DNA from: Amycolatopsis deserti
Lineage (GTDB): Bacteria > Actinomycetota > Actinomycetes > Mycobacteriales > Pseudonocardiaceae
Length of the DNA: 64,000 bases
Reading direction: 5' to 3'
Assembly: GCF_014653945.1 (NCBI RefSeq)
Contig: NZ_BNAU01000006.1
Location: forward strand, 248,001-312,000
Position 1 is the first letter of the stretch. Each line of letters starts with the position of its first letter. The notes under the pieces are model-generated. The model did not search any database. It was not told the origin of the DNA and saw nothing but the letters and a program-made list of their open reading frames with translations. This document shows, piece by piece, positions 7,085-16,939 of the stretch. The translations under genes were made by a program, and so were the position numbers.

Positions 7085-7702
7085 TTAATGCCCGAAGAAC
7101 CCCCGCCGCGGGTGGCGGATCACCAGCGAACCTCCGTGCAACCGGCCCGCGAACACCAGCCGTGGGTTGCCGGGCTTGCCGTCCGAGCCCGTCTTGTCCT
7201 GCAGCGAGCCGTACTTGATCTCGGTGATCGCGTTCAGGTCGACCGCCGCGTGGTCCGGGATGATCACCTCGACCGAGCCCCACTTGCAGTCCAGCTCGAC
7301 GCGCACCACCGGGGCCGTCACCTGCGCGTCGCTGAAATCGAGCTTCGTGGAGCCGTACCGGTTGCGCACCACCACCTCGGGCGGGACCAGCCACCGGCCG
7401 TTGCGCACCAGCGCCGAGTACTTCGCGTTCAGCTCGAGCCGCTGGTCCGGCGCGTACGACACCGTCGGCGCCGCCGGGTACACCTCCGGGTGCACCAGCC
7501 CGGGCAGGTCCGCGAGCACCGCGTTCAGCTCACCCCGCGTGCGCGCCGCCAGCGCCGTGTCGGTCCGCTCGGTGAACTCGTCCAAGTCGATCATGCCGCG
7601 GCCGATCGCCTTCTGCAGCACCTCGACGACGTGCTCGCGCTCCGCGTCCGACACCCGCAGGTCGCGCGGGCTCATCGGCTTGGTCCCGGTCTCCTCGCCC
7701 AT
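7085..7702 (-). CDS. DUF1707 domain protein with LiaF-like C-terminal domain
   Basis: 205 residues, no signal peptide or membrane segment. Residues ~12-55 carry the DUF1707 SHOCT-like pattern LRVSDAEREHVVEVLQKAIGRGMIDLDEFTERTDTALAARTRGEL. The remaining beta-rich part (WGSVEVIIPDHAAVDLNA, LVIRHPRRGFFGH) resembles the cell-wall-active-antibiotic response domain at the end of LiaF proteins. The combination is common in actinobacteria and is associated with envelope stress sensing, but the molecular role is unknown. It lies 48 bases downstream of the response regulator on the same strand, yet has its own leaderless-type promoter box. Confidence 0.8.
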   Translation of the reverse strand: MGEETGTKPMSPRDLRVSDAEREHVVEVLQKAIGRGMIDLDEFTERTDTALAARTRGELNAVLADLPGLVHPEVYPAAPTVSYAPDQRLELNAKYSALVRNGRWLVPPEVVVRNRYGSTKLDFSDAQVTAPVVRVELDCKWGSVEVIIPDHAAVDLNAITEIKYGSLQDKTGSDGKPGNPRLVFAGRLHGGSLVIRHPRRGFFGH

Positions 7703-7708
7703 GCCACC

Positions 7709-7714
7709 ACGCTA
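7709..7714 (-). promoter_or_regulatory. -10 element for leaderless DUF1707 gene
   Basis: TAGCGT on the minus strand at exactly -12 to -7 before the ATG at 7702. Confidence 0.45.
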
Positions 7715-7750
7715 CGACCGGAGACCCCGGGACGAGATCCGGGAAAATCC

Positions 7751-8395
7751 CTAGTCTTCGTCCAGCCCGTGCTCGATCGCGTAGCGCGCCAGCTCCACCC
7801 GGTTGTGCAGCTGCAGCTTCCGCAGCGTCGACTGCACGTGGTTCTCCACCGTCCGGTGCGACAACACCAGCCGCTCGGCGATCTGCCGCGCGGTGAGGCC
7901 CTTCGCGACCAGCCGCAGCACGTCGGTCTCCCGCTCGGTCAGCCGCGGCGGCGCCACCCCGCCCGCCGGCGCGTCCGCCATCCGGCGGTACTCGCCCAGC
8001 ACCAGGCCGGCCAGGCCGGGCGTGAACACCGGGTCGCCCTCCGCGGTCCGCCGCACCGCCTCGACCAGCTCCCGCACCGACGCCGACTTCACCAGGTACC
8101 CGGACGCCCCGGCCTTGACCGCCTCCAGCACGTCGCTGTGCTCGCCGCTGGCCGACAGCACCAGCACCCGGGTGTCCGGCAGCGACGTGGTGATCTCGCG
8201 CGTCGCGTCGACCCCGGAGGTGTTGCCCAGGTTCATGTCCATCAGCACGACGTCCGGCCGCACCGCGGTCGCGATGCGCACCGCGGCGGTGGCGTCCGGC
8301 GCGGTCGCCCGCACGTCGAACCCGTTCTCGGTCAGGTCGCGGGCCACACCGTCCCGCCAGATCGGGTGGTCGTCGACGACCATCACGCTGATCAT
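7751..8395 (-). CDS. NarL/LuxR-type response regulator
   Basis: 214 residues. Receiver domain with the acidic pair Asp8-Asp9, phospho-acceptor Asp53 in VVLMDMNLG and the Lys of LVKSASVREL. The C-terminal LuxR helix-turn-helix reads LTERETDVLRLVAKGLTARQIAERLVLSHRTVENH. The ATG at 8395 overlaps the kinase stop codon as ATGA, indicating translational coupling. It is the cognate partner of the upstream kinase. Arrangement and kinase type recall the MacRS system of Streptomyces, whose targets are membrane and lipoprotein genes; its regulon here cannot be read from the window. Confidence 0.93.
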   Translation of the reverse strand: MISVMVVDDHPIWRDGVARDLTENGFDVRATAPDATAAVRIATAVRPDVVLMDMNLGNTSGVDATREITTSLPDTRVLVLSASGEHSDVLEAVKAGASGYLVKSASVRELVEAVRRTAEGDPVFTPGLAGLVLGEYRRMADAPAGGVAPPRLTERETDVLRLVAKGLTARQIAERLVLSHRTVENHVQSTLRKLQLHNRVELARYAIEHGLDED

Positions 8396-9528
8396 GTCCT
8401 CGGCACCCGGATCTCCCATTCGGTCCCCTGTCCTGGCGCGGTCTCCAGGGAGATCGTGCCACCGAGTTCGGCCACGCGTCCCCGCATCGAGCGAACAACG
8501 CCCATCCGGCCCTCACTCTCCGCGTCCGCGAGCCGTCCCTCGGGGATGCCCGGACCGTCGTCCCGCACGGTCACCACGACCTCGCGGCCGACGTCCTCCA
8601 GCAGCACCCACGCCTTCGCCGCCGGGCCCGCGTGCTTGTCGACGTTGGACAGGGCCTCGCGGACCACGGCGACCAGCTCCGCGGTCGTCTCGGACGGCAG
8701 GTTCACCTCGCCCGCCGGCGCCGCGACCTGCACCTTCGACGATCCGAGCAGCTGCAGCGCGGCCCGCAGATCGGTCTCGCCGGTGCTGTGCCGCCGCGGC
8801 CCGGAGGAAACCAGCGCGCGCAGCGCGATCTCCTGTTCACCGGCCAGTTCGGCGAGCTCGGCAGCCTCCCCGCCCAGTTCCGCGCCGCGCCGCCGGACGC
8901 GGGCCAGCACCTGCAGGACGCTGTCGTGGATGTCGCGCGCCAGCCGTTCCCGCTCGGCGTTGGCGACCTCGGTGCGCAGCGCCTCGGCGAGCACGGCCGC
9001 CGACTTGCGCGCGGTCGACGCGCTCATGCCGATCAGCAGCCCGCTCGCGACCAGCAGCACGCCGTCGCGCGCCACATCGAGGGTGAACCCCTGCCGGGCG
9101 ACGCCCGTCGCGGCCGCGATCACCAGCCCGGCCGCGACGCCGCCCACCCCGCCGAACCGGGTGCCCGCCGCGACCGGCGCGCCGGCCACCCACACCGTCG
9201 TGATCAGCGGAGCCACCGCCGCGTTCTGCTCGTCGGTCAGGATCCACGGCGAGGTCAGCATCAGGGCGCACGTGACCAGCACATCCGCGAAGACGAACCA
9301 CCGCCACCGCCACCGCAGCGCCTCGCGCGCGTAGACCAGAGCGGTCGCGACCGTCCACAGTGTCATCCCGCCGAGCACCGCCCACGCCAGCCACGGCCGC
9401 TGGTAGCCGTCGCTGTGCACGATCACCGCGCCCACCGCGAACAGCAGCGTCAGCACCCGCAGGCCGATCGTGCCCCACCACAGCGGGGTGGCCGGTTCGC
9501 GCGCGGTGGGCCCGAACCGGCGGCTCAC
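8392..9528 (-). CDS. Sensor histidine kinase, MacS-like (HisKA_3 type)
   Basis: 378 residues. The N-terminal half holds about five or six membrane segments between residues 18 and 172, of the DUF5931 style seen in MacS-like kinases. It is followed by the dimerisation helix with phospho-acceptor His201 in RDIHDSVLQVLARV, and an HATPase_c domain with the N box (VREALSNVDKHA), DDGPGIP and the GMGVVRSM-like lid segment. GTG 9528 overlaps the stop of the upstream transporter as GTGA, so transporter, kinase and regulator are one operon. The signal is probably membrane-derived, since there is no large extracellular loop. Confidence 0.92.
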   Translation of the reverse strand: MSRRFGPTAREPATPLWWGTIGLRVLTLLFAVGAVIVHSDGYQRPWLAWAVLGGMTLWTVATALVYAREALRWRWRWFVFADVLVTCALMLTSPWILTDEQNAAVAPLITTVWVAGAPVAAGTRFGGVGGVAAGLVIAAATGVARQGFTLDVARDGVLLVASGLLIGMSASTARKSAAVLAEALRTEVANAERERLARDIHDSVLQVLARVRRRGAELGGEAAELAELAGEQEIALRALVSSGPRRHSTGETDLRAALQLLGSSKVQVAAPAGEVNLPSETTAELVAVVREALSNVDKHAGPAAKAWVLLEDVGREVVVTVRDDGPGIPEGRLADAESEGRMGVVRSMRGRVAELGGTISLETAPGQGTEWEIRVPRT

Positions 9529-10703
9529 GACTTGTCCGGTTCGCCGGGCTCCTCGTCCGACTCGGCGGGGTCGGCGTTGGGCACGGCCTCGATGTCGTGC
9601 AACACGTCGACGTCCGCGGGGTCCGGATCGACCTCGTGCAGCAGCGACCGCACACCGGCGTTGACGATCGACATCAGCGGCACCGCGAGCAGCGCGCCCG
9701 GGATGCCGTAGATGACCAGGCCCGCGGCGATGCCCAGCACGACGGCCAGCGGGTGCAGCTTGACCGCGCGGCCGAGCAGCAGCGGCTGCAGGATGTGGCT
9801 CTCCAGCTGCATGACCGCGATCAGGATGGCCAGCACGATCAGCGCGGTCACGAAACCCTTGGTGACCAGCGCGACCAGCACCGCGACCGCGCCGGTGATC
9901 ACCGCGCCGAAGATCGGGATGAACGCGCCGAGGAACACCAGCGTGGACAGCGGGATCGCGAGCGGGACGCCGAGGATCGCCAGCCCGATCCCGACACCGA
10001 CCGCGTCCACCACGGCGACCGCGGCGGTGGCGCGGACGAACGCGACCAGCGAGGCGAAGCCGCGCCGCCCGGCGACGTCCACGCGCTGCCGGACCTGGCC
10101 CGGGATGCCCAGCATCAGCCAGCTCCAGATCTTCTCGCCGCCGGCGAGGAAGAAGATCGTGACGAACAGCGTCAGCACGAAGCCGGTGAGGATCTCGCCG
10201 ACCGTGGTCGCGGTGGTGACCGCGCTGCTGGTGAACGCCGCCTGGTTGTCCTGCAGGAAGCTGATCGAGTTGTCCAGGAACTGCTGGATCTGTTCCTGCT
10301 TGAGGTGCAGGTCGTTGATCAGCCAGTCCCGGATCTGGTTGAGGCTGTTGTTGACCTGGCTGGTCAGCGCCGGCAGGCCGTCGGTGACGTTGATGACGAC
10401 GAACGCCAGCATCCCGCCCAGCACCGCCAGCCCGCCGACCAGCACGATCGCGGTCGCCAGCCCACGCGGCACCCGGACCTGCACGAGCCGCGCCACCGCC
10501 GGGGCGAGCAGGGCCGCGAGCAGCAGCGCGATCGCCACCGGGATCACCACGACCGACAGGAAGGCGAGCAACCGCAGGATGAGGTAGCCGGCCGCGGCCA
10601 CCACCAGCAACCGCCAGCTGAACGCGGCGCTGACCCGGAGCCCGCGCGGGACGACCGAGTCGTCGCTGAGGAATCCGTACTTCGGAGGCTGCGGCTCACT
10701 CAC
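9525..10703 (-). CDS. AI-2E family transporter (PerM-like membrane protein)
   Basis: 392 residues. A short cytoplasmic N terminus is followed by two hydrophobic helices (residues ~28-66), a membrane segment near 70-95, an amphipathic loop region, and a C-terminal group of helices with the family pattern LGAFIPIFGAVITGAVAVLVAL and YGIPGALLAVPLMSIV. The family includes TqsA and PerM, with varied or unknown substrates; AI-2 export should not be assumed. It is first gene of an operon with a two-component system, so the kinase may monitor or control it. The GTG at 10703 is preceded by a TAGGGT box placed for leaderless transcription. Confidence 0.88.
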   Translation of the reverse strand: MSEPQPPKYGFLSDDSVVPRGLRVSAAFSWRLLVVAAAGYLILRLLAFLSVVVIPVAIALLLAALLAPAVARLVQVRVPRGLATAIVLVGGLAVLGGMLAFVVINVTDGLPALTSQVNNSLNQIRDWLINDLHLKQEQIQQFLDNSISFLQDNQAAFTSSAVTTATTVGEILTGFVLTLFVTIFFLAGGEKIWSWLMLGIPGQVRQRVDVAGRRGFASLVAFVRATAAVAVVDAVGVGIGLAILGVPLAIPLSTLVFLGAFIPIFGAVITGAVAVLVALVTKGFVTALIVLAILIAVMQLESHILQPLLLGRAVKLHPLAVVLGIAAGLVIYGIPGALLAVPLMSIVNAGVRSLLHEVDPDPADVDVLHDIEAVPNADPAESDEEPGEPDKS

Positions 10704-10903: not shown

Positions 10904-11608
10904 ATGACGCGACCGACCACGGCCGGGAACATCCTGGTCCGCGTACTGCTCGGCATCGCCGGGGCGTTCGCGGTCACCCTGGTGTCCTGGCTCGTCGCGT
11001 CGTCGGCGTCGGCGGACGAGGCGCCGGATCCGCTGTCGCCGTTGCTCGGCCTGGTCGGTGAGACGACCGAGCCGGTGCACGAGGTCGTGCGGCAGGTCAC
11101 CGAGGTCGTCGTGCCGCCGCTGCGGACCGACCGGATCGTCGCTTCGCTGACCGGCACCGCGCCGGTGTTCGCGGAACCGGTGCGGCACCGGGCCACCGGA
11201 ACCACCCGCGCGAGCGCTCCGAAGCCACCGGCCGTGCCCGACCGCCGGGCGACCGCGGTGGCGCCGCGACCGCCGGAGCCGCAACCGGTTCCGGCGAAGG
11301 TCACGTCACCCGCGCCGCGGAAAGCCGCGCTGGTCTCGCTTCCCGAGCGCGTGCCGGATCCCGTTCCGGCCGAGCCCGCATCCGACAAACCCAAGCCGGA
11401 TGAGCCCAGACCGGACGCACCCGAACCGGCGGCGCCCGTGCCGCCGGAGCACGGCGTCTGCGTGGCTCCGGGGCACGCCACGGACACGGCCGCCGCGTGC
11501 CCGGCGCGTCCGGCGCCGCCGCCGATACCTTTCGCCGTGGTCGCCGAATCCCGTTCCGTCGTCGCCGGATTCTTCCGGGCCGAGCGCGCCCAGGTGTCTC
11601 CCGACTGA
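10904..11608 (+). CDS. Exported Pro-rich protein, paralogue of the 12810 gene (surface cluster gene 1)
   Basis: 234 residues, no known domain. A membrane-type signal (residues ~11-31, with LVRVLLGIAGA) ends in SSASA before DEAPD, a plausible signal-peptidase site at 37. The rest is mostly disordered and Pro/Ala-rich (repeated PxP and KPKPDEPRPDAPEP-type runs) with a possible cystine pair in the C-terminal third. The chain ends VSPD. The N-terminal pattern LVRxLLxIAGA and the C-terminal V(S/T)PD recur in the protein starting at 12810, so the two are relatives. Start ATG 10904 lacks a strong ribosome binding site (GAGAGGA is 15 bases away). Function unknown; cell-envelope location is inferred. 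Confidence 0.75.
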   Translation: MTRPTTAGNILVRVLLGIAGAFAVTLVSWLVASSASADEAPDPLSPLLGLVGETTEPVHEVVRQVTEVVVPPLRTDRIVASLTGTAPVFAEPVRHRATGTTRASAPKPPAVPDRRATAVAPRPPEPQPVPAKVTSPAPRKAALVSLPERVPDPVPAEPASDKPKPDEPRPDAPEPAAPVPPEHGVCVAPGHATDTAAACPARPAPPPIPFAVVAESRSVVAGFFRAERAQVSPD

Positions 11609-11661
11609 TTCGCCGGCACGTCCGCGCGACTTTTCCAATTGTTTTTCCTCGTGTCCTGTTC

Positions 11662-11692
11662 AGCCGCTCTGACCAGCAGTGGAGCGGCTTTT
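11662..11692 (+). terminator. Rho-independent-type terminator
   Basis: AGCCGCTC and GAGCGGCT form an 8-bp stem around a 12-base loop, followed by TTTT, 54 bases after the stop at 11608. It separates surface gene 1 from gene 2. Confidence 0.7.
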
Positions 11693-11824
11693 CGTGCTAC
11701 CCGAAAACGCGTTCTTCACACTTCCGGGTAATCGATCTGGTGAATTCTTCCATTCCACGTTTAACGTCATTTGCGACGGGAGTGCGTGGAACTTCCGGCT
11801 GAATGAAGAAGGAGTGCACTGACG

Positions 11825-12283
11825 ATGTTCAGCAAATTCCGCAAGACGACGGCCGCGGCGGTGCTGGTGGGGGCCGGCCTGCTCGCGATGGGTGTCTCCG
11901 GTGGGACGGCGTCGGCGGCGACCGGCGCGGAACCGTCCGGCCTGACCTGCCCCGCGCAGGTGCCCGCGTACCCGACCGGCGCCGACTACGTGAACGCGTG
12001 GAACCAGTCCGGGGCGTGTTTCGGCGCCGGTGCCGCGGGTCTGGTCAGCTCGGCCTGGGCCGGCGCCATCCCCTCGATCGTGCAGGGCGCGGCTGGTTCG
12101 GTCAGCGGCCGGGACGACAGCGGGCTGAGCGCGCCGGTGGTCGTCCCGTCCGACCCGACGGGCGCGGACTACGTGAACGCCTGGAACGAGTCCGGCGCGC
12201 TGGCCGGTGCGGGTGCCGCGGGCCTCGTCAGCTCGGCGTGGGCGGGCGCCATCCCGTCGATCGTCCAGGGCGCGCTCGGATAG
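11825..12283 (+). CDS. Small secreted protein with two GADYVNAWN modules (surface cluster gene 2)
   Basis: 152 residues. Signal peptide with KFRKTT basic start, hydrophobic core and GTASAATG cleavage region near residue 34. The mature part is two copies of a ~45-residue module: PTGADYVNAWN, a short spacer, GAGAAGLVSSAWAGAIPSI, then VQGA(L/A)G. The first copy has two cysteines (LTCPAQ and SGACFG); the second has none. The sequence is small-residue-rich and aromatic-spaced, like self-assembling surface proteins, but matches no family I know. AAGGAG lies nine bases before the ATG, inside AAGGAGTGCAC, which is also present before the next gene. The two proteins thus share leader and module. Confidence 0.8.
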   Translation: MFSKFRKTTAAAVLVGAGLLAMGVSGGTASAATGAEPSGLTCPAQVPAYPTGADYVNAWNQSGACFGAGAAGLVSSAWAGAIPSIVQGAAGSVSGRDDSGLSAPVVVPSDPTGADYVNAWNESGALAGAGAAGLVSSAWAGAIPSIVQGALG

Positions 12284-12320
12284 CGCTTTCACCCATCCCA
12301 CAACGCAAGGAGTGCACGTC

Positions 12321-12566
12321 ATGCGCAAGACCCTGATCCGCGGCACCGCCGCTTTCGCTCTCGCCCTCGGCGCGTTCGCTTTCGCCGGAACGGCGTCGGC
12401 CGACGAGCTGACCGCTCCGGTGGTGGTGCCGTCGCACCCGACCGGCGCGGACTACGTCAACGCCTGGAACGAGTCCGGCGCGCTCGCCGGCGCGGGTGCC
12501 GCCGGTCTCGTCAGCTCTGCCTGGGCGGGCGCGATCCCGTCCATCGTGCAGGGCGCGCTGGGCTGA
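12321..12566 (+). CDS. Small secreted protein with one GADYVNAWN module (surface cluster gene 3)
   Basis: 81 residues. Signal peptide (MRKTLIRGTAAFALALGAFA, then GTASADE, cleavage near residue 28) and a single module almost identical to the second module of the neighbour: over 50 codons (12131-12280 against 12414-12563) I count 17 synonymous and one amino-acid-changing difference (Asp to His). AAGGAG lies eight bases before the ATG in the same AAGGAGTGCAC context. The gap to the upstream gene is 37 bases and no terminator is visible there, so the two are probably co-transcribed. A long stem-loop follows the stop. Function unknown; exported structural protein is inferred. Confidence 0.8.
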   Translation: MRKTLIRGTAAFALALGAFAFAGTASADELTAPVVVPSHPTGADYVNAWNESGALAGAGAAGLVSSAWAGAIPSIVQGALG

Positions 12567-12574
12567 TTTTCCTT

Positions 12575-12609
12575 GGTGCGCCCAGGATCTCTCGCATCCT
12601 GGGCGCACC
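12575..12609 (+). terminator. Strong stem-loop terminator after the module genes
   Basis: GGTGCGCCCAGGAT pairs perfectly with ATCCTGGGCGCACC (14 bp) around a 7-base loop, nine bases after the stop at 12566. There is no T-tract after it, as is common in high-GC terminators. Confidence 0.7.
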
Positions 12610-12809
12610 GTGGCCCGGTCACCTCCCGTGAGGCCCGACCACACCCACGGTTCTTCACACGATCGTGCGATCAAGTCGTGTCGAAGGTGCGAGGGCCACC
12701 CGAGTTTTGGTTATCTCGACAGCGCAAGCGATCACCGCATCAATGCGAGCACGTTTCGGACACGGCTCGGCGGGGAAATCGCGATCAACTTCTTCGACAG
12801 GAGACGGTG

Positions 12810-13763
12810 TTGCAGGCGAACGCGGCCATGGGACGGGGTACGGCTTCGGCCGTGCGCTGGCTCGTCCGCGCCCTGCTCGTGATCGCCGGTGCCGCCCTCG
12901 GCACCGCGGCCGCCTGGCTGATCGGCGACGCCACCGCCTCCGCCACCCAGCTCGCGCCCGCCCCGGCGGACACGCGCACCAGCGGTGACGAGGCGACCCC
13001 GGTCACCGACCGCGTGGTCACCGCCACCGACGACCTCACCTGGGGCGCCTCCGACCTGGTCGGCAACGCCACCGCCACCGTGCTGAAGTACGGCATGGCC
13101 GGCGGCCCGGTCGACCCGGCCCGTGGCGAGGCGGCCGCGGCGGACCTGCGGCAGACGGTCCACTCGTTCACCCGGGACGCGGTGCTGCGTCCGGTCGAGC
13201 GCACCCTCGGCACCGCCGAGCACATCAGCCGCAAGCCGCAGGACGCGCCGCAGGTGATCGGCAAGGCGCTGACCCCGCCGCCGTCGGTCGCGCAGTTCGG
13301 CGACAAGGTGTGGGGTTTCCTGCACCCGGCGGGCAAGAGCCTGATCAAGCTGCCGGGCCTGGGTGGCTCGGACGACGCCGAGCACGCGGTCGCGGTCCCC
13401 GCGGCCGATGTCCTGCTTGCCCCCGCCGCCGACACCGTGATGGGTCCGGTGGCGAAGGCGGTGCCGGAACGCCCGCACGGCTCGGCGGCCGGAGCCGGTC
13501 AGCACGACCGGGACGCCGACCGTTCCTCCGGCGACCAGCGGGACCAGTTCCCGTACTCGCCGCTGCGCGGACCGCTCGCACCCGCGGGTGTTCCGTTCGC
13601 CCCCGGTGGCGCTGTCACCGGTGGTCACATCGACGGCCTGCTGTTCGGCGTTCCCGCCGGCGGCCCGGCCGTGCGTGGTGTGGACGACCGCAGTGCCGTC
13701 CGCATCGTTTCCCGGCACACGCCGGTTCAGCCGGGCGAGCAGCCCGGTGTCACTCCTGACTGA
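12810..13763 (+). CDS. Exported/anchored protein, paralogue of the 10904 gene (surface cluster gene 4)
   Basis: 317 residues from TTG 12810, which is six bases after AGGAG (12799-12803); GTG 12807 or ATG 12828 are alternatives. A membrane segment at residues ~17-38 contains LVRALLVIAGA and is followed by TASA, matching the N terminus of the protein at 10904. The middle is helical and polar (VTDRVVTATDDLTWGASDLVG, then VERTLGTAEHISRK), the last third Gly/Pro-rich (RGPLAPAGVPFAPGGA), and the end is VTPD, again as in the paralogue. No known domain. It lies between the module proteins and the repeat protein, all on one strand, suggesting a shared envelope role. Confidence 0.75.
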   Translation: MQANAAMGRGTASAVRWLVRALLVIAGAALGTAAAWLIGDATASATQLAPAPADTRTSGDEATPVTDRVVTATDDLTWGASDLVGNATATVLKYGMAGGPVDPARGEAAAADLRQTVHSFTRDAVLRPVERTLGTAEHISRKPQDAPQVIGKALTPPPSVAQFGDKVWGFLHPAGKSLIKLPGLGGSDDAEHAVAVPAADVLLAPAADTVMGPVAKAVPERPHGSAAGAGQHDRDADRSSGDQRDQFPYSPLRGPLAPAGVPFAPGGAVTGGHIDGLLFGVPAGGPAVRGVDDRSAVRIVSRHTPVQPGEQPGVTPD

Positions 13764-13838
13764 TTTTCGCGCGGGGTAGCTCGAAGCGCCGCCCTGTTCG
13801 CCGTGCCCTCTTCTTCGGACCGGCGTCGCGCGCACAGC

Positions 13839-13904
13839 CAGAGCACCCCGCTTTTCCAGCCCTCGCGGGCTTCCTCACCCATGCCCGCGATCCCCGGTGC
13901 TCTG
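13839..13904 (+). promoter_or_regulatory. Structured region in the leader of the chaplin-like repeat gene
   Basis: CAGAGCACC (13839-13847) is the exact complement of GGTGCTCTG (13896-13904). Between them AGCCC (13858-13862) and GGGCT (13867-13871) can form an inner hairpin. It could be the terminator of the upstream gene, which stops at 13763, or a cis-acting leader structure of the gene at 13961. Confidence 0.4.
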
Positions 13905-13960
13905 TCAGTGCACCGACCTCAAGCCCCGCAAGGGAACCCGAAGAAAAGGAGAAACCCTCG

Positions 13961-16879
13961 ATGCAGACCTGGGCAAAGCGCGGATTCCAGACCGCGCTGG
14001 TCACGGGTGGCTTGCTGATGCTGGGTACCGGCATCGCATCTGCCGACGAGAACGTCAACCCGGACAGTCCTGCCGGGCCGCTGGACATCCACCTGAGCGT
14101 GCCGGTCGACATCCAGGACAACGCCCTGGGCACCTTGGGCAAGCAGGTCAACCTGCCTGAGTTCCACAAGGAGATCAGCACCACGCCGGTCACCGACGCG
14201 GCGAACAAGGCCGCGGCCCCGGTCACCAAGACCGGCGCCCTGAAGCCCGCCGCCCCGGCCACGAGCGCCGCCAACGGCGTCGTCGCCAAGGCCACCGACG
14301 CCGCCAGCGGTGTGGCGCAGCGCGTCGGCCAGGCGACCCACCCCGGTTCGCAGCGCGCCACCGTCGCCCAGGACGCCGCCCCCTCGGTGCAGGACAACGG
14401 CGACCCGTTCCACGGCAACAAGGTCTCGGGCAACATCGCCGTGCCGATCTTGATCAGCGGCAACGCCCTCGGTGTGCTGGGTGACGCGGCCGTCGAGTCG
14501 GACGCCACGCAGACCTACGAGCACAACTCGGACGTCAACACCGACGGTTCGCACGGCGGTCTCGCCGGCAACGTCGTCGCGCTGGACTGGGCCGCGCCCA
14601 TCCAGATCTCGGGCAACGCGCTCGGCCTGGTCGGCAGCGGTCACAGCTCCGGCAGCGCGACGCAGGAAGCGTCGACCACCGGTGACATCGTCACCGACGG
14701 CACCAACGGTGGCCTCGCCGGCAACGTCGTCGCCCCGCAGGGTGCGACCCCGCTGCAGGTGTCGGGCAACGCGCTGGGCTGGTTCCTCGGCCACGCCGAG
14801 ACCGACTTCGAAGGCTCCAGCGAGGCGGAGTCCGGCGGCTCGATCGAGACGCACGGTTCGAAGGGTGCGGGCACCGGTAACGTCGCCGGCGTCCCGGTGG
14901 CCCTGCCCGCCAAGGTGTCCGGCAACGCCGTCTCCTGGGGTGGCGACGCCGACGTCCCGGCCGGCTCGTACGACGCCGAGGCCGAGGCCGGCGACACCGC
15001 CGACGGCCCGCGTGGCCCGAGCTACATCCAGACCGACGGTGACGACTCGTTCCTGGCGGGCAACGTCGCGCAGCCGCAGCCCGCGGTGCCGGCGACCGTC
15101 GCGGGCAACGCCGCGGCCTGGATCGGCAACTCGCTCGTCGGCGGCGGCGCGGACCGCCAGTCCGGTGGCGTGGACCTCGGCAGTGAGGCCACCTCGGGTG
15201 GGACCACCAGCACCAGCGGTGAGAACGCGGCCGGCTCCGGCAACATCGCCGACGCGCCCGTCGCCCTGCCCGTCGAGGCGTTCTGCGTCGGTGGCACGTG
15301 GATCGGCAACGCGCACGCCAACGGCTGCGACAACGAGACCGAGGCGCAGGCCGGTTCGGACACCTTCACCTCCGGCAACGGCAGCTTCCTCGGCGGCAAC
15401 AGCGTTTCGGCTCCGCCGGCCGGCACCGTCGAGGTGTTCGGTGTGGGTGGTTCGTGGATCGGCAACGCCTCGGGCAGCGCGACCGAGACGAAGGACGTCA
15501 AGGCCGGTGGCTACACCGGGACGCTGGGCAACGACTCGGCGGGCTCCGGCAACGCCGTGCAGGTCCCGGTGGCTGTGCCCGCCGAGGTCTTCGGCGTCGG
15601 CGGCTCGTGGATCGGTCAGGGGGCCGGGGAGGCTTCCGAGACCAAGACCGTGACCTCCGGTGGGGACGGCAACACCCAGGACGACAACGCCGCGGCCTCC
15701 GCGAACCTGGTCCAGGTTCCGGTGTCGGCCCCGGTTCAGGCGTTCGGCATCGGTGGCGCGTGGATCGGCCAGGGCTCCGGCGCGGCCACCACTGACACCA
15801 CCTCGACCGCGGGTGGCGACGGCAAGGCGACCGGCAAGGGCGGCTTCGCGGCGGGGAACATCGGCGCGGTGCCGGTGTCGCTCCCGGCGCAGGTGCACGG
15901 CCTCGGCGCCGCGTGGATCGGCAACGGCTTCGGCGAGTCGGAGAACGTGACCGACTCGACCGCGGGCGGTGACCTGAACACCACCGGTGAGGGCGGCTCC
16001 GTCGCCGGCAACATCATCGAGGCGCCGGTCGGCGCCGTGGCCACCGTCTTCGGTGACGCCGCGGTGTGGGGCGGCGTGGTCAAGGGCGACGCGTCCAACG
16101 ACGTCGTCTCGACCGCGGGCGGCGACGCCACGACCAACGGTGACGGCGGCTCGATCGCCGGCGACGTGATCGCGGCGCAGGCCCTGCCGGTGGCCCAGGT
16201 GTTCGGCAACGCGGCCAGCCTGGTCGGTGTCGCGCACGCGGCCGGCCTCAACAGCACCGAGGCCAACTCGGGTGGAGACATCACCACCTCGGGCGAGGGC
16301 GGCGCGCTGTCCGGCGACATCTTCGACGTCCCGGCCGCGGCCGTGGCGCAGGTGTTCGGCAACGCCGTCTCGCTGGGCGGTGTCGCGCACGCGATCGCCG
16401 ACAACACCACCAACGGGACCGTGGGCGGCACGGACACCACGTCCGGCCCGACCAAGGCCCTGTCCGGGATCAGCAAGCAGGTTCCGGTCGGTGTCGTCGC
16501 CCAGGTCTACGACATCCCGCTGGGCCTGATCGCGGTCACCAGCACGACGGTCAGCAACGCGACGGACATCTCGGTCGCCGGCAAGGAGCCGCAGATCGAC
16601 CTGCCGATCACGATGCCGGAGATGGGCGCCACCGCCCTGCCGACGCTGCCCGCGCTGCCCGCCCGCTCGGAGCGCTCCGCGCTGCCGCAGGTGAACACGC
16701 TGCCGGTCGAGCTGCCGGGTGCGGGTCTGCCCGAGCTGCCGGAGCTGCCGACGAGCGTCGAGGGCGTCCTGCCCACCGGCGACGTCCCGGCCATCGCGCA
16801 GCTGGACAGCAACCCGACCGCCGTCTTCGAGCAGGTCAGCGACCTGGTCAGCGGCAAGGGGATCAACATCCGGGGCTGA
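13961..16879 (+). CDS. Giant secreted protein of about 14 chaplin-like repeats (surface cluster gene 5)
   Basis: 972 residues. Signal peptide 1-28 (cleavage GIASA before DEN). After a linker, about 14 repeats of 45-60 residues fill residues ~155-870. Each has (S/A)GN(I/V)xxxPVxxPxxV(F/S)G(N/V)xxxWIGNxxG, separated by acidic Thr/Ser/Gly linkers. This is the chaplin pattern (GNxxxxPVxxPxxxxGNxxxxxG) of hydrophobic amyloid-forming spore-coat proteins, but chaplins carry only one or two copies. One repeat alone keeps a cysteine pair, Cys442 and Cys456, as chaplins do. The C-terminal ~100 residues are Pro/Leu/Glu-rich (PTLPALPAR and LPELPELP); there is no sortase motif with a membrane helix. AAAAGGAG lies nine bases before the ATG. 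A secreted, probably self-assembling surface fibre is inferred. Confidence 0.85.
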   Translation: MQTWAKRGFQTALVTGGLLMLGTGIASADENVNPDSPAGPLDIHLSVPVDIQDNALGTLGKQVNLPEFHKEISTTPVTDAANKAAAPVTKTGALKPAAPATSAANGVVAKATDAASGVAQRVGQATHPGSQRATVAQDAAPSVQDNGDPFHGNKVSGNIAVPILISGNALGVLGDAAVESDATQTYEHNSDVNTDGSHGGLAGNVVALDWAAPIQISGNALGLVGSGHSSGSATQEASTTGDIVTDGTNGGLAGNVVAPQGATPLQVSGNALGWFLGHAETDFEGSSEAESGGSIETHGSKGAGTGNVAGVPVALPAKVSGNAVSWGGDADVPAGSYDAEAEAGDTADGPRGPSYIQTDGDDSFLAGNVAQPQPAVPATVAGNAAAWIGNSLVGGGADRQSGGVDLGSEATSGGTTSTSGENAAGSGNIADAPVALPVEAFCVGGTWIGNAHANGCDNETEAQAGSDTFTSGNGSFLGGNSVSAPPAGTVEVFGVGGSWIGNASGSATETKDVKAGGYTGTLGNDSAGSGNAVQVPVAVPAEVFGVGGSWIGQGAGEASETKTVTSGGDGNTQDDNAAASANLVQVPVSAPVQAFGIGGAWIGQGSGAATTDTTSTAGGDGKATGKGGFAAGNIGAVPVSLPAQVHGLGAAWIGNGFGESENVTDSTAGGDLNTTGEGGSVAGNIIEAPVGAVATVFGDAAVWGGVVKGDASNDVVSTAGGDATTNGDGGSIAGDVIAAQALPVAQVFGNAASLVGVAHAAGLNSTEANSGGDITTSGEGGALSGDIFDVPAAAVAQVFGNAVSLGGVAHAIADNTTNGTVGGTDTTSGPTKALSGISKQVPVGVVAQVYDIPLGLIAVTSTTVSNATDISVAGKEPQIDLPITMPEMGATALPTLPALPARSERSALPQVNTLPVELPGAGLPELPELPTSVEGVLPTGDVPAIAQLDSNPTAVFEQVSDLVSGKGINIRG

Positions 16880-16894
16880 CGCCCTGATCTGAAG

Positions 16895-16929
16895 CGGGCC
16901 CGGGAGCGTGTGCTCCCGGGCCCGTTTTT
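16895..16929. terminator. Bidirectional terminator between repeat gene and dioxygenase
   Basis: CGGGCCCGGGAGC and GCTCCCGGGCCCG form a 13-bp perfect stem with a 4-base loop followed by TTTTT on the plus strand. It serves the repeat gene and may also stop transcripts from the convergent dioxygenase gene. Confidence 0.9.
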
Positions 16930-16939
16930 CGTGTGTGGA

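Follow-up and report, generated by a model that had tools for sequence, protein, structure and literature searches.

What covalent linkage of amyloid units would gain is a question that could be asked of a locus in Amycolatopsis deserti. Chaplins are a well-known functional amyloid, and their best-known role is in the aerial coat. The stretch of DNA analysed, called here the window, comprises 64,000 nucleotides of contig NZ_BNAU01000006.1 (positions 248,001 to 312,000) from a genome of 7.74 Mb, and the locus occupies positions 10904-16879 of its plus strand. It consists of five genes, P1-P5, all on that strand, and each product carries an export signal (a basic, hydrophobic N-terminal stretch with an A-x-A site, recognized by eye in all five). 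A first-pass annotation had described five consecutive plus-strand genes for exported proteins without enzyme motifs, the last of them a chaplin-like protein of about 14 repeats, and this description holds: the genes lie where they had been placed, no enzyme family is matched above cut-off, and searches of Pfam and NCBIfam returned no match above curated cut-off for P1-P4 and the family ChpA-C (PF03777) alone for P5. Judged by sequence, the chaplin-array locus is real and conserved and its products carry export signals; the most interesting part of the locus is an unnamed partner family.

The relation of P5 (positions 13961-16879, 972 aa) to chaplins was approached in several ways. The protein, whose basic, hydrophobic N-terminus ends A-S-A (by eye), scores 37.3 bits against PF03777 (cut-off 21, E 2.4e-9) over five stretches, the best single stretch in the genome reaching 24.6 bits, and is the sole chaplin-family match of its host genome at E <= 0.001. 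With a profile of its own repeats, 13 copies score strongly (residues 144-817) and a 14th weakly (residues 826-855, E 0.011), and the repeat region thus spans residues 144-855 (positions 14390-16525). For an independent test of homology, a profile was built from Streptomyces-type chaplins, a designation inferred throughout from the chaplins of the loci concerned. This profile gives P5 21.2 bits, and composition shuffles at most 7.4 bits (500 made, 435 reported). In profile–profile comparison, P5-family repeats matched Streptomyces-type chaplins with a probability of 95.8% (E 8e-9), while none of 30 column-shuffled controls exceeded 25.9%. On these scores the P5 repeats are related to chaplins and the match is above chance, which upholds the likeness first proposed.

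The array is also conserved in its internal order. P5 is 94% identical to its counterpart in Amycolatopsis tucumanensis and 91% to that of A. thermalba (the closest named relatives in one collection), and matches were found in 37 of the 61 genomes searched, its own included, among them 17 of 18 other genomes of the genus; in the same-genus exception (G015), the contig with the P2/P3 module ends at the locus, and it was treated as missing data. Within the protein, the 13 repeats share a mean identity of 36%. The best match of each is the repeat with the same number in its relatives, at a mean identity of 78% in another Amycolatopsis locus (L023) and 65-71% in Prauserella (L027, L029, L030); the register is constant, as are many Gly and Trp positions, and by this measure repeat order is fixed across the two genera. 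In five more distant loci tested, the register is blurred. The cysteines add information on descent. Most domains of Streptomyces-type chaplins carry a Cys pair, whereas P5 has a single, vestigial chaplin-type pair, Cys442 and Cys456 of repeat 6 (positions 15284-15328), which stands one position off the chaplin column and is retained in 18/18 same-genus loci (window included). The first Cys of repeat 6 falls on the chaplin column in L056 and L059, and in two arrays from other families of the order (L063 and L064), 8/10 and 4/5 repeats have Cys there. Because of this pattern, P5 reads as the descendant of a Cys-bearing chaplin array from which Cys was lost later. Multi-repeat chaplin proteins are not confined to this locus, and arrays of 4-10 domains are present in several other families. 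More than one chaplin array per locus or genome was observed at L054, L061 and L062, where the profile counts as many as 18 repeats.

Upstream of P5 lies P4 (positions 12828-13763, 311 aa; an alternative GTG start 21 nt upstream is possible), which consists of a signal anchor, a variable middle and the C-terminal sequence QPGVTPD (with the stop codon, positions 13740-13763). In its orthologues both ends are kept and the middle drifts; the last seven residues are invariant in the 12 sequences aligned. P1 (positions 10904-11608, an open reading frame of 234 aa) shows the same anchor and tail pattern, with a Trp-bearing signal anchor and the ending AQVSPD (VSPD at positions 11594-11605). The two had been taken for paralogues. 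Their likeness is confined to the ends (BLASTP E 0.11), but relatives show that these ends are the family signature, and the pairing is right in this sense, P1 sharing the type of anchor and ending VSPD. By these shared features, P4 and P1 are members of an unnamed family, here called the PD-tail family, with a Trp-bearing signal anchor, a drifting middle and a C-terminal [S/T]PD. Ten PD-tail proteins of other families gave no Pfam match at E <= 0.1 and came nowhere near an NCBIfam cut-off. The sequence QPGVTPD-stop occurs once in the host genome, at P4, and in 20 of 41 genomes searched, while the reversed control gave none. A role as a genome-wide sorting tag was considered and is unsupported, the sequence being limited to a single copy in 16 of the 18 other genomes of the genus and to two copies in one.

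The association of this family with chaplin arrays was scored as a frame ending [STNR]PD, on the same strand and upstream of an array. Such a frame is present in 49 of 53 non-Streptomyces-type loci and in 0/19 Streptomyces-type loci. The pair was found in seven of eight families: the window's own (35/37), three others of the order (f5 3/3, f11 1/1, f3 1/1) and, elsewhere in the class, f31 (4/5), f51 (4/4) and f48 (1/1), with f22 (0/1) as the exception. Among the misses, L061, L143 and L150 have no PD-tail frame and L062 ends KFPD; in L144, a second array lies between the PD-tail frame and the array. A looser test, accepting any PD, made one Streptomyces-type locus positive (L081, ending RCPD). 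These counts leave out L022-L026, which repeat counted loci, and the repeat-less L116-L121; L149 and L155 (no frame with at least two domains) and 8 of 27 Streptomyces-type loci also stand outside the 53 and 19. Of one set of 19 genomes, 15 and G059 were covered, with G068, G074, G338 and extra matches on other contigs of some genomes outside the sample. As background, 57 of the 2933 closed frames with 150 aa or more at these loci have a PD tail; 54 of them lie upstream of arrays, and the remaining three (L049, L054, L063) have the same tail type in array loci, so that no unrelated frame with such a tail occurs among the 2933. By a simple rule, Trp falls within the hydrophobic N-terminal stretch in 53 of the 54 (the L152 frame failed; the placement in L151 is clearly wrong). 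Among 296 genomes of the class, DPSFSPD-stop was found in 21, all chaplin-positive and all of family f31, which has 26 chaplin-positive genomes, five of them without this exact tail; the reversed control gave 0. At L063, a locus with a 10-repeat, Cys-bearing array, a second PD-tail protein with a Trp anchor was seen on the minus strand of the locus as oriented for the analysis (oriented position 2048), ending DPSVSPD.

We propose that P4 and P5 make up a surface-assembly module of two genes, with P2 and P3 as accessory coat proteins, mainly of Amycolatopsis, a reading to which we assign a probability of about 0.5. P5 would be exported via Sec, and its repeats would stack edge to edge into a beta-solenoid, in effect a covalently chained chaplin amyloid, as the predicted model suggests; if the repeats are stacked within P5, the cross-beta stacking that is intermolecular in short chaplins would therefore occur within one chain. 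The resulting rods might pack on the hyphal wall, probably in aerial growth, as a layer of hydrophobic or amphipathic character. P4 would stay at or near the membrane by its signal anchor, with the PD tail docking, nucleating or retaining the array, and P2 and P3 would co-assemble with the layer or fill it. An assembled envelope layer, as had been suggested at the outset, is plausible. The proposed place of P4 is connected with how arrays are anchored. An LPxTG/LAxTG motif lies within the last 70 residues of all 19 Streptomyces-type long-chaplin frames, and a sortase-type motif near the end of 10 of 17 other-family array frames, four more of which show, by eye, a terminal hydrophobic stretch accompanied by basic residues. 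P5 has no LPxTG/LAxTG motif, and in a set of 44 P5 sequences (including L063, L064 and five duplicates) a sortase-type motif is present in the last 80 residues of L055 and L063 only. P4 is proposed as the main tether because the Amycolatopsis arrays lack the sortase motif common on many other arrays, and it may matter most for array retention in this group.

The fold of P5 was addressed by prediction. Its AlphaFold2 model is solenoid-like and strand-rich, and in the VIA structural comparison of this model, a table from whose rows the absence of a family does not exclude it, the top row is CsgA, with 8% sequence identity. A search of PDB sequences with the P5 alignment gave 0 matches. Several observations weigh against the proposed reading. 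The model is a moderate one, with a mean pLDDT (the predicted per-residue confidence) of only 56, and Foldseek found 0 PDB matches for it at E <= 0.001; AlphaFold2 is moreover described as biased toward beta-solenoids for perfect repeats (PMC11795689). The repeat region is not hydrophobic overall, its GRAVY (grand average of hydropathy) being 0.01 against 0.46, 0.07 and 0.55 for three short Streptomyces-type chaplins, and it is acidic (70 D+E versus 13 K+R). Cys is gone from all P5 repeats but one and from the whole protein in 6/6 Prauserella. Single orthologues carry a weak signal: at E <= 0.001, PF03777 has a match in 9 of the other 18 genomes of the genus, and against the Streptomyces-type profile L023, L025 and L061 reach E 0.011, 0.056 and 1.1. 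The dN/dS of P4 (0.38-0.74) indicates weak constraint, and three of the 18 other genomes of the genus (G006, G011, G016) lack P2 and P3 altogether. As for the pairing, the PD criterion was chosen after the first tails had been seen, and the window's family contributes 37 loci that are not independent; since many of them are close relatives, families are the fairer counting unit. In some family members a gene bears the P5 signal sequence and no repeats, in three loci next to the same AI-2E gene, and the array is therefore replaceable. Matches limited to the signal sequence and first residues, with no convincing repeats, were found in G019, G023, G028, G030, G031 and at a second G033 site. In the window's family, loci L116-L120 combine the P5 signal and first residues with a non-repetitive body and a PD-tail protein near it; here the array may have been lost, or may never have been acquired. 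With L121 included, a PD-tail frame stands upstream in five of six repeat-less loci, two of them 1.6-1.9 kb away.

These observations can be accommodated by other explanations. P5 could be an adhesin or a fibre of the biofilm matrix, serving attachment or pellet cohesion rather than the aerial-hypha coat, with P4 as its membrane tether. The repeat region, acidic and overall not hydrophobic, the occurrence of arrays in several families, the LPxTG/LAxTG-type motif near the end of 10 of the 17 other-family frames and a reported role of chaplins in attachment (PMC4255298) all point in this direction, whereas the small hydrophobic P2 and P3 beside the array in Amycolatopsis and the kinship to proteins best known for the aerial coat point to a coat, although both would still be compatible with adhesion; we consider an adhesin the less probable assignment, yet one to be taken seriously. 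The solenoid could itself be an artefact of AlphaFold2 and the repeats an extended, flexible stalk rich in Gly, Ala and Thr with a few chaplin-like sticky segments. The bias of the program, the low pLDDT and the missing Foldseek match speak for it. Against it, P5 is not the perfect-repeat case, because its repeats average only 36% identity, and its register and numerous Gly and Trp positions are held constant across two genera; we regard such a stalk as unlikely.

Two further explanations concern the partner and the function. That the extreme C-terminus is kept while the middle of P4 drifts would also be expected if the PD tail were a processing or quality-control signal of P4 itself, read, e.g., by an envelope protease, and if P4 and the arrays were paired through shared timing only; the recurrence of the pair across seven of the eight families and the lack of any unrelated frame with such a tail among the 2933 at these loci make this very doubtful. 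Finally, strand-rich, Thr-containing repeats might belong to an ice-binding, nutrient-binding or enzyme-scaffolding solenoid, but chaplin homology and the lack of an enzyme or ligand-binding family match above cut-off leave such an unrelated function highly improbable.

The proposed P4–P5 module can be placed among known systems. With the long chaplins ChpA-C, P5 shares export, tandem chaplin domains and, by cut-off, the Pfam family. According to PMC5618241, long chaplins have two domains and a C-terminal sortase signal and all chaplins but ChpE have two Cys; two domains and the sortase motif were found in 19/19 Streptomyces-type frames, whereas P5 has 13-14 repeats, no such motif, one Cys pair, in repeat 6, and a PD-tail partner. 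The arrays of other families (L063, L064, L140-L154) are similar in that a single protein mostly has 4-10 chaplin domains and a PD-tail protein is encoded upstream of it, but several are rich in Cys and 10 of 17 frames carry the sortase-type motif. Curli, in which a stacked repeat subunit (CsgA) is combined with a surface partner (CsgB), offers an analogy only, the P5 side of which is a predicted model. PMC4255298, in the part available, names chaplin-like proteins outside streptomycetes in a few genera, Amycolatopsis not among them, with A. mediterranei in its genome set. A literature search on chaplins in Pseudonocardiaceae and other actinobacteria and on the Amycolatopsis secretome, in which subscription journals were mostly outside and the PD-tail family was not a subject, found no title or abstract opening on this locus. 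More generally, non-Streptomyces filamentous actinobacteria and their relatives might make a surface layer from a pre-stacked chaplin-array amyloid rod and a PD-tail protein that docks or nucleates it, Amycolatopsis being the extreme form in which nearly all Cys and the sortase anchor were lost and P2 and P3 recruited; this extension is put forward tentatively, with the odds rather against it. The locus offers a candidate coat for Amycolatopsis and relatives, and the PD-tail family a testable partner, with conserved last residues, that adjoins the majority of the non-Streptomyces-type chaplin arrays examined. The combination in several families hints at an overlooked way to build a bacterial surface layer.

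The accessory genes follow a different course. P2 (positions 11825-12283, 152 aa) has two GADYVNAWN modules, with a Cys pair in the first, and P3 (positions 12321-12566, 81 aa) has one. P3 resembles the short chaplins ChpD-H in having 54 aa past the signal and a GRAVY of 0.47 (52, 66 and 52 aa in the three Streptomyces-type proteins compared above); size and hydrophobicity are comparable, but no sequence relation of P2 or P3 is detectable. Their reading as divergent chaplins has no support (hhalign of module against chaplin, 0.4%), and the structure model of P2 is uninformative (pLDDT 40). The modules are present in the P5 locus in 14/17 other same-genus loci and 1/6 Prauserella loci. Beyond the genus, only G026 matches well (E 1.8e-16), with this match and the P5 copies on separate contigs; of the 295 other genomes sampled from the class, 3 match, all weakly (E 0.002-0.008). 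P2 (dN/dS 0.08 and 0.11) and P3 (0.10 and 0.06) are the most constrained of the five genes, P5 having 0.22-0.55 and P1 0.54-0.56, and P1 gave a tblastn match in 5/17 other same-genus loci. Members of the set do adjoin in related genomes, as had been expected, but the five genes are not kept as a set: P2 and P3 occur mostly in Amycolatopsis, P1 has a patchy distribution, and P4-P5 is an old, deep pair.

P1-P5 are probably not one transcript, because stable hairpins follow P3 and P5. The first, at positions 12574-12610 of the plus strand, is GC-rich, without a T run, and a possible terminator (fold of 12564-12625, z -5.3); the second, at 16891-16930 on the same strand, is strong, with a T run, and a likely terminator (fold of 16880-16935, z -6.8). 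A scan for promoter and terminator consensus gave nothing useful and reported neither hairpin. A one-operon reading is also not favoured by the gene-wise differences in conservation and by separate copies of the element TTCTTCACAC before P2 and P4 (plus strand, positions 11712-11721, starting 113 nt 5' of the P2 ATG, and 12651-12660, starting 177 nt 5' of the P4 ATG). These are the two copies in the window, against 0.02 expected. The copy before P2 is exact in 8/9 aligned regions (window included), and that before P4 in 14/17 other same-genus loci (a further 2 differ at one position) and in 4/6 Prauserella loci. The genome holds 8 copies, and no clear regulon was seen at the six outside the window. 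Downstream of P5 are genes for a LigB-type protein, a small gene, an ABC protein, which its ABC match and sub-threshold UvrA matches suggest to be UvrA-like, and DnaB. Upstream, divergent genes at positions 7085-10703 of the minus strand encode an AI-2E-family transporter, a DUF5931 histidine kinase, a LuxR-type response regulator and a DUF1707 protein; a regulatory link between this block and the array locus is possible. The AI-2E gene lies within the array locus in 27 of 30 same-family loci (L033-L062). Upstream of P4, a conserved block at positions 12651-12690 contains the inverted repeat ACACGA...TCGTGT (by eye), which may be a regulator site.

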